Shown: positions 1-59,234 of the stretch, one piece after another
How positions within the stretch are numbered: the stretch's first letter is position 1
Layout: every line of letters begins with the position of its first letter
Assembly: GCF_944390845.1 (NCBI RefSeq)
Contig: NZ_CALXRM010000008.1
Span: 1 to 64,000 of the forward strand
Direction: 5' to 3'
DNA: 64,000 nucleotides
Source of the DNA: an uncultured Brachyspira sp.
Lineage (GTDB): Bacteria > Spirochaetota > Brachyspiria > Brachyspirales > Brachyspiraceae
Position numbers and translations under genes: made by a program
The notes under the pieces: model-generated
Database searches by the model: none
Told to the model about the DNA's origin: nothing
Seen by the model: the letters and a program-made list of their open reading frames with translations, nothing else

Positions 1-70
1 GCGGCAAAAAAGTTGATAATATTACATAATGTGCAGTAGTCGGCAAAATGAAATCGTTTCAGTATATACT
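1..70 (+). repeat. Right end of outward-promoter repeat (copy A1, type-2 tail)
   Basis: This is the tail end of a + oriented copy that begins left of the window. It matches 36380-36453 and, inverted, 58899-58975. The end reads outward as TCGGCA (40-45), 17 bp, TATATA (63-68). The AGTATATACT palindrome at 61-70 is shared with copy A2, which lies tail-to-tail with it. Confidence 0.85.
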
Positions 71-330
71 GAAAATTGTTAAGTTTGTCAACCGATGCAC
101 TTTATGTAAATTTTATATACTTTTTTGTCGCACACGCTCTGCGGACTTCGTCAAAGTAGCAAAAAACGCAATTTCTAGAATTTTATATTTGAAAAATACT
201 TATTAAATATAGGATATAACCTAAATTTATATTAAAAATGCAGTCTTTCGTGAAGCGTATCCTCGATAAACTCGGATACGCTACGTGAAAGTGCAATTAC
301 AAAATTAGTACTAAATCATACTAAATTATG
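61..330 (-). repeat. Outward-promoter repeat, copy A2 (truncated)
   Basis: This inverted copy starts at the shared AGTATATACT. On the minus strand its end is a TTGACA-like box (complement of 86-91), 17 bp, then TATATA (63-68). It holds the family core, including a hairpin of type ATCC-TCGATAAACTC-GGAT near 259-277. The expected left end of the family is missing, and similarity fades near 330. The stretch 331-406 shows nothing recognisable. Confidence 0.8.
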
Positions 331-14371: not shown

Positions 14372-14730
14372 AGTATATACCTAAACAAATATACTTTGTC
14401 AAAAATAAATTTATGTTTTGGTTTTATATCTGGGGCTTTGCCCACCGCTCTGCGTGCTTACGCAATACCCCAGTTATTTTGCGACCGAAGGAAGTACTGT
14501 AAGTATTACCACAAAGAAGCTTATATCCTCGATAAACTCGGATACGCTTCGCGAAAGGCTACATTTCGACTTAAATTTAGTAATTTATCTTACAAGTAAG
14601 ACATAATTAGTATGATTTAATACTAATTTTATATTTGCACTTTTTGGTTCTTTGACGAAGTCAGCAGAGCGTATGCGGCGGGAAAAAGAACAACAAAAAA
14701 TTGACAAAGTTAAAAATTTTTAGTATATAC
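14372..14730 (+). repeat. Outward-promoter repeat, copy B1 (complete)
   Basis: This is a full copy of 359 bp. The left end reads to the left as TTGACA (complement of 14397-14402), 17 bp, TATATA (14374-14379). The right end reads to the right as TTGACA (14701-14706), 17 bp, TATATA (14724-14729). The interior has GC-rich palindromes such as CTGGGG...CCCCAG, ATCCTCGATAAACTCGGAT and the GACGAAGTC/GCAGAGCGT block. There is no transposase. Confidence 0.88.
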
Positions 14731-14760
14731 CTAAACAACTATATTTTGTAAAAAATAAAA
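14722..14760 (+). repeat. Solo left end of a further repeat copy (B2)
   Basis: Directly after copy B1 and sharing its AGTATATAC, a second left end begins: TATATA, 17 bp, TGTAAA (14747-14752). The rest of the copy is lost. From 14761 to 14932 nothing beyond AT-rich spacer is seen. Confidence 0.75.
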
Positions 14761-27222: not shown

Positions 27223-27588
27223 AGTATATACCTAAACAACTATATTTTGTCAAAATAATTTTTTTAATTTAAAATATTTTTAGGGCTTTGCCCACCGCTC
27301 TGCGTGCTTACGCAGAACCCCAGTTCTTTTACGACCGAAGGAAGTACTGTAAGTATTGGTATAAAAGAACCTATATCCTCGACAGGCTCGGATACGCTTC
27401 GCGAAGAGCTGCATTTTTGACCTAAAACTAGGGTATTACACTATATTTAATATATTCTTAAAATATAAAGTTCTAGCAATTGCGTTTTTTGCTACTTTGA
27501 CGAAGTCCGCAGAGCGTGTGCGGCAAAAAAGTAGATAAATTTACATAAAGTGCATCGGTTGACAAACTTAAAAATTTTCAGTATATAC
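27223..27588 (+). repeat. Outward-promoter repeat, copy C1
   Basis: Left end: TATATA 27225-27230, 17 bp, TGTCAA 27248-27253 (promoter reading left). Right end: TTGACA 27559-27564, 17 bp, TATATA 27582-27587 (reading right). The interior is another variant of the core, with the CCGAAGGAAGTACTGTAAG and CTCGACAGGCTCGGAT palindromic blocks. This copy begins 10 bp after the ROK gene stop. Confidence 0.88.
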
Positions 27589-27858
27589 CTAAACAACCAT
27601 ATTTTGTCAAAAATAATTTTTTAAATTTTAAATATCTGTAGGCTTTGCCGCATACCCCCACTTCTTTTGCCGACGCTCTGCGTGCCTTTGGCAAGGTGTA
27701 CTTAAATTAATAATCTATCTTACTGTAAAATAATTTTAGTATGATTTAACACTAATTTTATACTTGCAGTTTTTGGTTCTTTGACGAAGTCAGCAGAGTG
27801 TACGCGGTGGGAAAAAGTTGACTAAAAAAATGACAAACTTAAAAATTTTCAGTATGTA
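27580..27858 (+). repeat. Outward-promoter repeat, copy C2 (tandem)
   Basis: It starts in the AGTATATAC shared with copy C1; TATATA 27582-27587, 17 bp, TGTCAA 27605-27610 reads left. The right end is degenerate: ATGACA 27830-27835, 17 bp, TATGTA 27853-27858. The true promoter of the dehydrogenase gene (27899-27926) follows 40 bp later. Confidence 0.85.
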
Positions 27859-27898: not shown

Positions 27899-27926
27899 TT
27901 GACAATATGTATAGAGATAGTATAAT
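27899..27926 (+). promoter_or_regulatory. Promoter of the sorbitol-type dehydrogenase
   Basis: TTGACA 27899-27904, a 16 bp spacer, TATAAT 27921-27926: perfect hexamers. TAGGAG at 27969-27974 is the ribosome binding site, 7 bp before the ATG at 27982. Confidence 0.75.
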
Positions 27927-27981
27927 TACTTTTATAAAATACTTTTATAAAAGTATATTTATTATTTATAGGAGTTTTATT

Positions 27982-29013
27982 ATGAAAGTTGCTGTGATGA
28001 CAGATATTAAAAAAATACAATTTATAGAAGCTGATAAACCTAAACCAAAAGACGATGAAGTTTTAGTAAAACTTGAGTATGTAGGAGTATGCGGTTCAGA
28101 TTTGCATTATTATGAACATGGAGCTATAGGAGATTATATTGTTAAGCCTCCATTTGTATTGGGACATGAATGCAGCGGTACAATTGTTGAGATAGGAAGC
28201 AAAGTTAAACATTTAAAAGTAGGTGATAGGGTAGCATTAGAACCTGGAAAAACTTGCGGTGAATGTGAGTTTTGCAAAACTGGAAGATATAATTTATGTC
28301 CTGATGTTATATTCTTTGCTACACCTCCTGTTAATGGAGTTTTTCAAGAATATGTTACTCACCCAGAATCATTATCATTTAAATTGCCTGAAAAATTATC
28401 ATCTATGGAAGGAGCTTTAATAGAGCCTTTAGCTGTTGGAATGCATGCCGCAAGACAAGGCGATGCTAAAATAGGAGATGTTGCTTTTGTTACTGGGGCA
28501 GGCTGTATAGGTTTATGTTCAATGCTTTCTTTAAAAGCTTCAGGAGTTTCTAAAGTTTATGTTATAGATGTTGTTAAAAAACGTCTTGATAAAGCATTAG
28601 AATTAGGAGCAAACGGTGTTATAGATGCTTCGAAAGAAGATGCTGTTAAAAGAGCATTAGAATTAACTCAAGGAAAAGGAAGCGATATAACAATAGAAAC
28701 TGCAGGTACAGAAATTACAACTAATCAGGCTATAGAATTTGCTAAGAAAGGTTCTGTTATAGTTTTAGTAGGATACAGTAAAACAGGAAAAGTTAATATG
28801 AATCTTAGCATGGCTTTGGATAAGGAATTAACTTTCAAAACGGTATTTAGATATAGACATTTATTTCCATTATTGATTGATGCTGTAGAAAATGGAAGTA
28901 TTAATATAAAAGATATAGTTACAAATATTTATGATTTCAAAGATTTACAGGAAGCTTTGGATAATAGTGTTAATGATAAAGCTAATATAGTAAAAACTGT
29001 AATAAAAATGTAA
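27982..29013 (+). CDS. Zinc-dependent sorbitol/xylitol-type dehydrogenase
   Basis: This 343-residue medium-chain dehydrogenase starts at ATG 27982, where the ribosome binding site is. The catalytic zinc ligands are Cys in EYVGVCGSDLHYYEHG and the GHE in FVLGHECSG. The structural zinc cluster GKTCGECEFCKTGRYNLC follows. The NAD site is GAGCIGLCSML near residues 172-182 with VIDVVKKRL, whose Asp predicts NAD rather than NADP. The family oxidises polyols such as sorbitol or xylitol to ketoses. It is monocistronic with a strong promoter and terminator. The substrate polyol is not decided. Confidence 0.9.
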   Translation: MKVAVMTDIKKIQFIEADKPKPKDDEVLVKLEYVGVCGSDLHYYEHGAIGDYIVKPPFVLGHECSGTIVEIGSKVKHLKVGDRVALEPGKTCGECEFCKTGRYNLCPDVIFFATPPVNGVFQEYVTHPESLSFKLPEKLSSMEGALIEPLAVGMHAARQGDAKIGDVAFVTGAGCIGLCSMLSLKASGVSKVYVIDVVKKRLDKALELGANGVIDASKEDAVKRALELTQGKGSDITIETAGTEITTNQAIEFAKKGSVIVLVGYSKTGKVNMNLSMALDKELTFKTVFRYRHLFPLLIDAVENGSINIKDIVTNIYDFKDLQEALDNSVNDKANIVKTVIKM

Positions 29014-35499: not shown

Positions 35500-35825
35500 G
35501 GGTTTATGAAAGTTAGTAAGATGAATTTAACAATATTTTTCTTAGAAAATTCCTTTTCTATATTACATAATTTTTCACAATATAAAATCCTTATAAAATT
35601 AATCTCAAAAATTTTCTTTGAAAGATTCTTTAAGTCATTAATATTTTACTTGTATATTCATACAAAACTTAATTGTTATATATTATAATAATTTTGTAGA
35701 AAATAGTATAGTCTGTAAAATAGACTGTAAATTCATAATTGACTAAATAAAGAATAAGCCATACATTTACGAAAAGTTTTATAACAAACTTATGGGGATA
35801 TATATTCGTATATATCCCTATTTTT
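35500..35825 (+). ncRNA. Candidate small RNA transcript between waaA and repeat D1
   Basis: A good promoter (35465-35493) and a clean intrinsic terminator (35795-35825) bound about 325 bp. A second promoter-like TTGACT 35739-35744, 17 bp, TACATT 35762-35767 could give a 50-nt form. Hairpin AGTCT/AGACT near 35709-35725. The only reading is a 60-residue stretch from 35506 without a ribosome binding site. No known RNA family recognised. Confidence 0.35.
35795..35825 (+). terminator. Intrinsic terminator with a TTCG tetraloop
   Basis: GGGATATATA (35795-35804) and TATATATCCC (35809-35818) pair perfectly around a TTCG loop, followed by TATTTTT. It is 340 bp from the nearest upstream gene, so it probably ends a short untranslated transcript. 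Confidence 0.8.
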
Positions 35826-35826
35826 A

Positions 35827-36183
35827 TATATACATAAACAACTATATTTTGTCAGAAATAATTTTTTTGAATTTTAAATATCTGCAGGGCTTTGCCATTG
35901 CGAATCACGCAGAGTGCAGTCCCCAGTTCTTTTACGACCGAAGGAAATACTGTAAGTATTGCCACAAAGAAGCTTATATCCTCGATAAACTCGGATACGC
36001 TTCGCGAAAGGCTGCATTTCGACTTAAATTTAGTAATTTATCTTATATGTAAAACATAATTAGTATGATTTAATACTAATTTTATATTTGCACTTTTGGG
36101 TTCTTTGACGAAGTCCGCAGAGCGTATGCGGCGGGAAAAAGAACAACAAAAAATTGACAAACTTAAAAATTCTTAGTATATAC
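35827..36183 (+). repeat. Outward-promoter repeat, copy D1
   Basis: Left end: TATATA 35827-35832, 17 bp, TGTCAG 35850-35855 (complement CTGACA), reading left. Right end: TTGACA 36154-36159, 17 bp, TATATA 36177-36182, reading right. The core is very close to copy B1, including TCGATAAACTCGGATACGCT and the GACGAAGTCCGCAGAGCG block. Confidence 0.88.
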
Positions 36184-36453
36184 CTAAACAACTATATTTT
36201 GTCAAAAATAAATTTATATTTTTGTTTTTATATCTGGGGCTTTGCCCCATACCCCAGTTCTTTTATTGGTATAAAAGAACCAAAAAAACTGCATTTTTAG
36301 TCTAAATCTAGGTTATACCATACATTTAATACATATATTTTTAATATAAAGTTCTAGCAATTGCGTTTTTTGCAACTTTTTTGTGCGGTAAAAAAGTTGA
36401 TAATATTACATAATGTGCAGTAGTCGGCAAAATGAAATCGTTTCAGTATATAC
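36175..36453 (+). repeat. Outward-promoter repeat, copy D2 (tandem, type-2 tail)
   Basis: Shares AGTATATAC at 36175-36183 with copy D1. Left end: TATATA 36177-36182, 17 bp, TGTCAA 36200-36205. Right end: TCGGCA 36424-36429, 17 bp, TATATA 36447-36452. It contains a GGGGC-TTT-GCCCC hairpin near 36236. Its last base overlaps the folC stop codon. Confidence 0.88.
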
Positions 36454-37745
36454 TATTTTTTGTATATGCTTATAAATTCACTTGCTGTGTATAATGAGCC
36501 TATTACAAGTAATGGCTTATTTATTGATTTGATATTCTCAATTGCCTCTTTAAAATCTGGTATATGTTTTACATTGTCATTATCTTTTAAATATTCATAA
36601 GTTTTATAACTGTCTGTTTCTTTATAAGATATATTATCAGGCGAGCTTAATATTATAATAGAATCATGCTGTTTTAAAACATTAGCCATACCTTTTATGT
36701 CTTTCTGACTCAATGGGGCAAACAGTATTACTATATTATCATACCATTTATATATAGTTTCTAATACTCTTTCCAATGATTGAGCATTATGAGCACCATC
36801 AACTATTATATCAGGATTTTTTTGAATGAATGATAGTCTTGCATTTATATGGAAATCTTTCAATGAATTAATAGCTTTATTTATATTTTTTTCTGTGCAG
36901 TTATTATCATTTTTTAAAAGTATTGTTAATGCTTTGAAAGATAAAGAAATGTTTTCAGCTTGATGTTCTCCTAAAAGGGTAGTGGAAAAATTATATTCTT
37001 TACCATTATCTTTATAAACGAATTCTAGTTTTTCATTGCTGTTTAATATTATGTCAGCATCAAAATCTTTTTTGAATACATATAATTTACATTCATTTTC
37101 ATTTGATATATTTTTTATTATTTTGATAGAATTTTCTTCCTGATAAGCTGATATTACTGTTGAATTTGGTTTTATAATGCCTGCCTTTTGTTCTGTTATT
37201 TCTTCTATAGTGTATCCTAATATTTCCATATGATCATAAGAAATAGAAGTTAATATACTTATACAAGAATCAACTATATTAGTACAGTCGAGTTTTCCTC
37301 CTATTCCAACCTCAATACAAGCGTAATCCACGCTTTTTATATAAAAATAGTATAAACCTATTATTGTAAATATTTCAAATACTGTGATATTGCTGTATAT
37401 TTTATTGCTTTCAATAATATTTTTAATTTTCTTAGTGATATTAATGAAATCTTCTTCACTAATCCATTCACCGTTTATTGATATTCTTTCTCTTTCATTA
37501 ATTATATGCGGAGATGTAAATGCTCCTGCTTTGTATCCTATAGATGAAAGCATTTTTGATAATGTTAATGTAGTAGAGCCTTTACCTTTAGTTCCTGTTA
37601 TATGTATAACTTTGAATGTTTGTTTATATCCTAAAACTTTTAATATTTCTTTTACATTATTTATATGATTTAAATTCTTTTTATGTAATGTCTTTTTTCC
37701 CATAAATGAGTATATATAGTCTAATGTTTCATTAAAGTTTTCCAT
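36453..37745 (-). CDS. folC: Folylpolyglutamate synthase/dihydrofolate synthase
   Basis: This 430-residue Mur-ligase-like enzyme adds glutamate to folates. Motifs: VIHITGTKGKGSTTLTLSKM near residues 46-65 (P-loop), FTSPHIINERERISING near 77-93, VEVGIGGKLDCTNI near 140 and TSISYDHMEILGYTIEEI, and the C-terminal DGAHNAQSL near 292. Whether both synthase activities are present is not decided by sequence. Its stop is abutted by the repeat D2. No other folate gene is adjacent. Confidence 0.93.
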   Translation of the reverse strand: MENFNETLDYIYSFMGKKTLHKKNLNHINNVKEILKVLGYKQTFKVIHITGTKGKGSTTLTLSKMLSSIGYKAGAFTSPHIINERERISINGEWISEEDFINITKKIKNIIESNKIYSNITVFEIFTIIGLYYFYIKSVDYACIEVGIGGKLDCTNIVDSCISILTSISYDHMEILGYTIEEITEQKAGIIKPNSTVISAYQEENSIKIIKNISNENECKLYVFKKDFDADIILNSNEKLEFVYKDNGKEYNFSTTLLGEHQAENISLSFKALTILLKNDNNCTEKNINKAINSLKDFHINARLSFIQKNPDIIVDGAHNAQSLERVLETIYKWYDNIVILFAPLSQKDIKGMANVLKQHDSIIILSSPDNISYKETDSYKTYEYLKDNDNVKHIPDFKEAIENIKSINKPLLVIGSLYTASEFISIYKK

Positions 37746-46885: not shown

Positions 46886-47184
46886 AGTATATACTTAAAA
46901 TTTTAGAGTTTGTCAATTGATACACTTTATATAAATGTTATCTACTTTTTTGCTGCACAAAAAAGTTTTTATCCTTCGGATACGCTACGCAAAAAACACA
47001 ATTATTAGAACTTTATATTTTAAAAATACTTATTAATATAGGATATATCCTAAATTTAGACCATAAATGCAGGCTTTTTGGTTCTTTGTGCCAACAAAAG
47101 AACTGGGGGAGTGGGGGCAAAGCCACCACAAACAATAAAATTAAAAAAACTAAAATTGACAAAATATAGTTGTTTAGGTATATA
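46886..47184 (-). repeat. Outward-promoter repeat, copy E
   Basis: Inverted copy of 299 bp. Left end: TATATA 46888-46893, 17 bp, TGTCAA 46911-46916 (reading left). Right end: TTGACA 47156-47161, 17 bp, TATATA 47179-47184 (reading right). The whole intergenic stretch 46825-47194 is otherwise AT-rich spacer. Confidence 0.88.
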
Positions 47185-48257: not shown

Positions 48258-48676
48258 AGTATATACTGAAAATTTTTAAGTTTGTCAATTTTTTTATTGT
48301 TCTTTTTCCCGCCGCATACGCTCTGAGGACTTTGCCAAAGTAGCTATATCCTCGACAAGCTCGGATACGCTTTGCGAAAGTGCAAGGTATAAAATTGGTA
48401 CTAAATCATACTAAAGTTGTCTTACATGTAATATAATTTATTAAATTAAAGCCCAATATAGCCTTTCGCCAAAGGCGGGCTGTGCCTGCTTCTTTGTGGC
48501 AATACCACCCTAAAGGACTTCCTTCGGTCGCAGGCACTCCTTTCAGTCGCAAAAGAAGTGGGGTGCTACGAAGTACGCAGAGCTGCACTCTGTGTGCTTA
48601 GCAGTGGGCAAAGCCCTGCAGATATTTAAAATTAAAAAAAATTATTTCTGACAAAGTATATTTGTTTAGGTATATA
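48258..48676 (-). repeat. Outward-promoter repeat, copy F (long variant)
   Basis: Inverted copy of 419 bp. Left end: TATATA 48260-48265, 17 bp, TGTCAA 48283-48288 (reading left). Right end: CTGACA 48648-48653, 17 bp, TATATA 48671-48676 (reading right), 74 bp before the lipoprotein ATG. The core has extra blocks (GCGAAAG, CGAAGGAAGTCC variants). The interval 48155-48257 is AT-rich spacer. Confidence 0.87.
48648..48676 (+). promoter_or_regulatory. Element-borne promoter candidate for the lipoprotein gene
   Basis: The right end of repeat F reads CTGACA, 17 bp, TATATA directly toward the lipoprotein ATG at 48751. Transcription from near 48683 would give a 68-nt leader with GAGGG as ribosome binding site. 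No better promoter is seen between the repeat and the gene. Confidence 0.4.
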
Positions 48677-58898: not shown

Positions 58899-59234
58899 GG
58901 TATATACTGAAACAATTTCATTTTGCCGACTACTGACATTATGTAATATTATCAACTTTTTTGCCGCACACGCTCTGCGGACTTCGTCAAAGTTGCTGCC
59001 TACAGCACGCAGAGCGAAAAACGCAATTACTAGAACTTTATATTAAAAATATATGTATTAAATGTAGAGTATAACCTAGATTTAGACTAAAAATGCAGTT
59101 TTTTTGGTTCTTTTATACCAATACTTACAGTACTTCCTTCGGTCGTAAAAGAACTGGGGGTTCGGGGGCTAGTCCCCGAAAATAATAACAATATAAAAAA
59201 TAAAATTGGCAAAATGTAGCTGTTTAGGTATATA
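58899..59234 (-). repeat. Outward-promoter repeat, copy G (type-2 tail)
   Basis: Inverted copy of 336 bp. Left end: TATATA 58901-58906, 17 bp, TGCCGA 58924-58929 (complement TCGGCA), reading left. Right end: TTGGCA 59206-59211, 17 bp, TATATA 59229-59234, reading right. The core has a GGGGGCTAGTCCCC hairpin and the CCTTCGGTCG block. The interval 58817-58898 is AT-rich spacer. Confidence 0.88.

Follow-up and report, generated by a model that had tools for sequence, protein, structure and literature searches.

Positions 27559-27610 of the window (the whole 64,000-nucleotide stretch of DNA from an uncultured Brachyspira sp. that was analyzed) hold TTGACA, 17 bp, TATATA, 17 bp, and TGTCAA, and the locus raises the question of whether such a block serves as a promoter on both strands or has some other origin. 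The window belongs to contig C8 of a draft genome, G000, of 3.43 Mb in 133 contigs. A first-pass annotation had listed this block, a second one at 36154-36205, and versions with weaker outer boxes at 14701-14752 and 40-91. A pattern search of the window returned exact matches at the first 2 sites, 1 mismatch at 14701-14752 (TTTACA on the minus strand), and 2 mismatches at 40-91 (TCGGCA on the left). When up to 3 mismatches were allowed, the window had 8 matches compared to 0.19 expected from shuffles, and 0 of 100 shuffles reached 8. The genome-wide count of junctions that the annotation had called for came to 41 exact sites, 72 with at most 1 mismatch, and 106 with at most 2, compared to 0 for the reversed-pattern control. 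At least 1 junction site (at most 1 mismatch) was present in 21 of 26 Brachyspira genomes. We interpret the blocks as junctions of 2 MITE copies with IS630-type ends, made by insertion at TA into existing ends, and assign this reading a probability of roughly 0.88.

The half-pattern TATATACNNAAAN9TTTGTCAA, searched with at most 1 mismatch, identified 475 ends in G000 (control, 0), from which the copy number is roughly 240. We paired 63 copies from the ends in the window and in 40 further loci; these were 128-566 bp long, most of them 210-430 bp, and their terminal inverted repeats, about 29 bp long, were imperfect and of 2 end types, A and B. In 51 of the 63, the two ends differ, one being A (CTAAACAACTATATTTTGTCAA) and the other B (TGAAAATTTTTAAGTTTGTCAA or a near match). 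A minority of copies have an E-type end (TGAAACGATTTCATTTTGCCGA), the outer box of which is thereby TCGGCA. The element is short, is present in high copy number, has terminal inverted repeats but no transposase coding capacity, and duplicates a TA target site in 3 filled/empty pairs; by the defining features tested, it is a MITE with IS630-type ends. The features of the window are collected in the table below. At the 14701-14752 junction, the right partner is a degenerate remnant with an A-end on either side, from 14724 to about 14781 (about 58 bp). The copy at 48264-48672 is the window's only element between divergent genes, and both of its outward promoter-like ends face gene starts. The window also holds an ORF for a TPR-repeat protein (474-1748) with ten direct repeats of a period of about 102 bp at 569-1719. 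An Rfam scan and a tRNA scan gave no matches, nor did a ROK protein scan of the genome contigs.

Table. MITE copies, junctions, and a promoter-like site in the window; for MITE copies, strand refers to the B-to-A direction of the autonomous IS.
Positions	Strand	Feature	Basis
40..91	.	Junction of E-type end (TCGGCA) and B-type end; left element extends past window	
14378..14725	-	MITE copy (TAC...GTA), A-end left, B-end right	Element borders/chains
14701..14752	.	Junction of B-end and A-end, one outer box TTTACA	Pattern match
27229..27583	-	MITE copy, A-end left, B-end right	
27559..27610	.	Junction of B-end of 27229-27583 and A-end of 27586-27854, common TA 27584-27585	
27586..27854	-	MITE copy, A-end left and B-end right, the outer end reading ATGACA-17-TATGTA	
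27899..27926	+	TTGACA-16-TATAAT, 12/12 sigma-70 match, beyond array	Promoter scan
35831..36178	-	MITE copy, A-end left, B-end right	
36154..36205	.	Exact junction with common TA 36179-36180; flanking genes kdtA and folC are convergent	
36181..36448	-	MITE copy with A-end at left and E-type end at right; TCGGCA is not a good -35	
46892..47180	+	Single MITE copy, flanking genes convergent	
48264..48672	+	Single MITE copy, flanking genes divergent	
58905..59230	+	Single MITE copy with E-type end at left and A-end at right, flanking genes convergent	

Three filled/empty pairs between species (L083/L084, L079/L088, and L021/L022) place the insertion at a TA that is duplicated. The filled site L083 reads AATTTAGTA-TA-[TAC...GTA]-TA-ATAAAG, and the empty site L084 reads AATTTAGTATAATAAAG; in L021, the array downstream of folC in G022 is filled, and it was compared with G009 and G007. 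The element is thus TAC...GTA and the TA is duplicated on insertion; therefore, a junction is GTA]TA[TAC, 2 elements with one TA in common. The claim that touching copies have one AGTATATAC in common was correct, the common part being, more exactly, the central TA of GTA-TA-TAC. The overlap of elements at junctions is exactly six bases, TATATA. That the symmetry is built by joining repeats was also supported, with each half similar to a sigma-70 promoter directed out of its own element. At the folC array (35827-36452), the flanks at 35790-35830 and 36449-36475 carry an extra near-repeat, CTATTTTT(A/T), that the TA model leaves unexplained. A 9-bp target duplication derived from these flanks was rejected, being absent at other arrays and at odds with the TA given by the 3 filled/empty pairs.

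The outer flanks of 87 solo ends gave a target half-site of T-T-A-R-T-A next to the duplicated TA, for a preferred full target of about TTARTA-TA-TAYTAA. The element tip, TACTAAAA, has the best possible score for this half-site. In a sample of intergenic TA sites, half of the element borders outscored all but 15 of 6,508 others, a score partly inflated by training on these same flanks, some of which may themselves be remnants of old elements. Strict filtering for remnants kept 35 of the 87 flanks, and the core T-A-A-T-A persisted. The preferred target resembles the element's own tip (TA-TACTAAAA), and the edge of an existing copy should therefore be a prime target. A second copy arriving at that edge would use the single TA and produce GTA-TA-TAC, which would automatically superpose 2 outward TTGACA-17-TATATA halves. 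The MITEs would be moved by an IS630-type transposase, and the junctions would be made by target preference rather than selection.

A candidate source of that transposase was found in another genome of the genus. The profile PF13358 (DDE_3, IS630-type transposases) gave one match in the genus, in G015 (40.5 bits, cut-off 28.6), within an IS of 1,060 bp with a B-end and an A-end as its exact borders; its transposase gene is decayed, with stop codons inside. In a Pfam scan, translated pieces of the decayed transposase gave nothing beyond weak HTH matches, and no relative of its N-terminus was found in viral contigs. The PF13358 profile search of G000 gave 0 matches. However, "no transposase in G000" was rejected: a search with the G015 IS identified ends in G000 that extend past the terminal repeat into the transposase gene, and wherever the length of the contig is known (C2, C13, C83, C115, and C129) their positions coincide exactly with contig ends; on several other contigs, further ones lie at base 1 or a few bases from it. 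Because IS ends stand at so many contig ends, the IS is probably present in G000 as many near-identical copies that were collapsed or left unplaced in the assembly. No intact transposase gene was recovered, the sole full-length IS being the decayed one and the ends alone being assembled in G000. The MITE and an IS630-family element have ends in common, as seen in the decayed G015 IS with its DDE_3 match and in the G000 fragments.

Eighteen IS A-end fragments of G000 matched the IS of a different species, G024, at 97-100% identity. By comparison, DNA identity to the folC genes of other species is about 80%, and the IS has therefore probably spread horizontally between species in recent times. 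IS ends of such identity stand at the contig ends of C14, C39, C41, C72, C100, and others in G000. The window's own contig terminates in a junction of a MITE B-end and an IS A-end (G000:C8:69359-69436), which suggests that this contig broke at the IS. In L121 (G000:C83, 1-60), the A-end TTGACA contains TGA, the stop codon of the transposase gene, so that in the IS this box would also be under coding constraint. A comparable pair is RUP of Streptococcus pneumoniae with IS630-Spn1, a MITE with ends that match an IS630-family element and with TA insertion (PMC2229807). RUP differs in being 107 bp long with short inverted repeats and in having no promoter motifs reported, and joined copies are not described in that paper.

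The junctions could have a role in transposition itself. An A-end that abuts the B-end of an autonomous IS would read into the transposase gene and raise transposition, in the manner of the P-junc promoter of IS30. The start codon of the IS is 57 bp inward from its B-end, A-end to B-end is the commonest junction order, and IS copies do take part in junctions in G000 (C83, C115, and C129). IS30 targets sites adjacent to its own inverted repeats and forms orientation-specific IRL-IRR junctions with a strong P-junc promoter at the joint (PMC9333248). However, the intact-looking IS ends at the joints read so far are A-ends rather than B-ends, and 3 IS B-ends (C2, C46, and C79) are next to either ordinary DNA or MITE interior. 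Moreover, reading through TATATA provides no T at -7; in the 2 exact junctions, only TATACT at a 19-bp spacing would supply one, and solely for a reading that leaves the A-end. IS30 also has a transposase of a different family, whereas the Brachyspira element is a TA-type MITE that tolerates inverted joints and has each -35/-10-like pair at one end, not split between 2 ends. We consider a transposase promoter at the junctions rather unlikely.

The annotation's interpretation stood in part. Both outward halves are sigma-70-like, but a two-way promoter of the known symmetric -10 type was not supported. The symmetric bidirectional promoters of Escherichia and Salmonella also have an AT-rich, self-complementary -10 region common to both strands, in which -11A and -7T are reciprocally paired (A-N-N-N-T) and start sites are 18 bp apart (PMC10268837); the Brachyspira TATATA, in contrast, has A at -7 both ways, and that pairing is absent. 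A promoter scanner that requires T at -7 did not list the block at 27559-27610. The argument for real symmetric promoters under selection, with polymerase binding the common TATATA either way, is that consensus -35 boxes stand at the optimal 17-bp spacing in both directions at 41 exact sites and that TTGACA and TATAAT-like boxes occur upstream of genes in G000. Several lines of evidence count against it. Upstream of genes outside elements, after a TTGACA-like box, TATAAT was found 13 times in sense and 5 in antisense orientation and TATATA only 2 and 0 times, although these numbers are small. Conservation is not concentrated at the hexamers: end columns that the search pattern did not fix show about the same conservation, and the terminal inverted repeat is conserved over its whole length, which is as expected of a transposon end. 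Junctions lacking one outer box, named beforehand in the first-pass annotation as an outcome that would speak against it, do exist in the form of E-type ends with TCGGCA in place of TTGACA. The one-sided TTGACA-17-TATATA is present at single element ends and not at junctions alone; among solo ends, TATATA at a 17-bp spacing was found in 72 of 87 and T at the last position in only 3 of 87. Two-way promoter activity of the junctions is thus unproven and not favored, and selected promoters of this kind seem very unlikely to us, although weak transcription from the ends may be compatible with the evidence. For the dehydrogenase ORF at 27907-29013, the 12/12 site beyond the array is a better candidate promoter than the junction; the start codon of this ORF is probably further in.

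The distribution of the elements bears on the same question. Both neighbors were known for 45 arrays, which lay between convergent genes in 24 cases, co-oriented genes in 18, and divergent genes in 3, compared to 20%, 51%, and 29%, respectively, of the window's free intergenic DNA (p 7e-7 for the convergent excess). Elements therefore avoid divergent intergenic regions and favor convergent ones, which counts against selected two-way promoters. This excess raises another scenario, in which the elements, lying between convergent genes, would function in RNA as terminators or 3'-end sequences and their ends would be transposition signals alone; one terminator-like hairpin does lie inside the 27229-27583 copy. 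However, the same distribution would follow from selection against insertions near gene starts together with a T-rich target, and the internal sequences vary (about 64% pairwise identity). An RNA 3'-end role accordingly appears improbable.

Returning to insertion into existing ends, the adjacent copies in 13 sampled pairs were 60% identical on average compared to 64% for random pairs. Neighbors no more alike than random copies indicate that the junctions formed by serial, independent insertion. Tandem duplication or recombination of one copy would account for the dominance of head-to-tail order but is contradicted by these 13 pairs, by end types and lengths that often differ, and by inverted pairs (L041 and L069), and we rejected it as having hardly any likelihood. 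Head-to-tail order was found in 39 of 50 junctions in G000 (p 9e-5) and in 35 of 39 in other species (p 3e-7). A symmetric target is insufficient for this orientation bias, and something more is needed; loss of long inverted repeats or pairs, or an orientation rule like that of IS30, could explain it.

Promoter likeness would then be a property of single ends, which would be weak outward promoters at most and would occasionally be completed to consensus by the landing site. The Correia elements of Neisseria (CREE/NEMIS) are likewise short TA-inserting repeats with terminal inverted repeats and hundreds of copies, and their ends carry a -35 together with an incomplete -10, to which the landing site adds the rest (the 'Black' promoter; PMC2649163, PMC2229807). 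They are unrelated in sequence and shorter (about 69-157 bp, compared to mostly 210-430 bp), whereas most ends of the Brachyspira element complete only to TATATA and very many of its copies are joined end to end. The Correia-type arrangement, with a -35 in the element end and a -10 completed by the landing site, was found in Brachyspira. In L083, a TATAAT that L084 has in unbroken form is split by the insertion, which places TTGACA 17 bp upstream of it, giving TTGACA-17-TATAAT. In L125 (G000:C83, 427-463), an A-end insertion gives the same TTGACA-17-TATAAT (12/12) directly before the ATG of ORF 442-1350, which we take to encode an Rpn/PD-(D/E)XK-type protein. Downstream sequence similar to that at L125 also follows the element in L083. 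These sequences hint at a broader scenario in which both TATA-like boxes and the MITE's own ends serve as landing sites, so that the ends double as target. The terminal repeat would supply a consensus -35 at exactly 17 bp from the box used for landing; insertion into a native -10 could then leave the downstream gene with a working promoter, and repeated landing on its own ends would build chains with promoter-like joints on both strands. We offer this as a tentative proposal that is more doubtful than probable.

We found no description of this element in Brachyspira in the literature searched, which covered few of the subscription journals. One Brachyspira genome carries hundreds of its ends, and most genomes of the genus have its joints. 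The element helps to account for the breaks at repeats in short-read assemblies of Brachyspira genomes. It also provides a clear case of a transposon whose target is like its own tip, leading to joined copies and promoter-like symmetry without selection for symmetry. Finally, it offers a specific place to ask whether a promoter split by insertion can take its new -35 from the inserted end.
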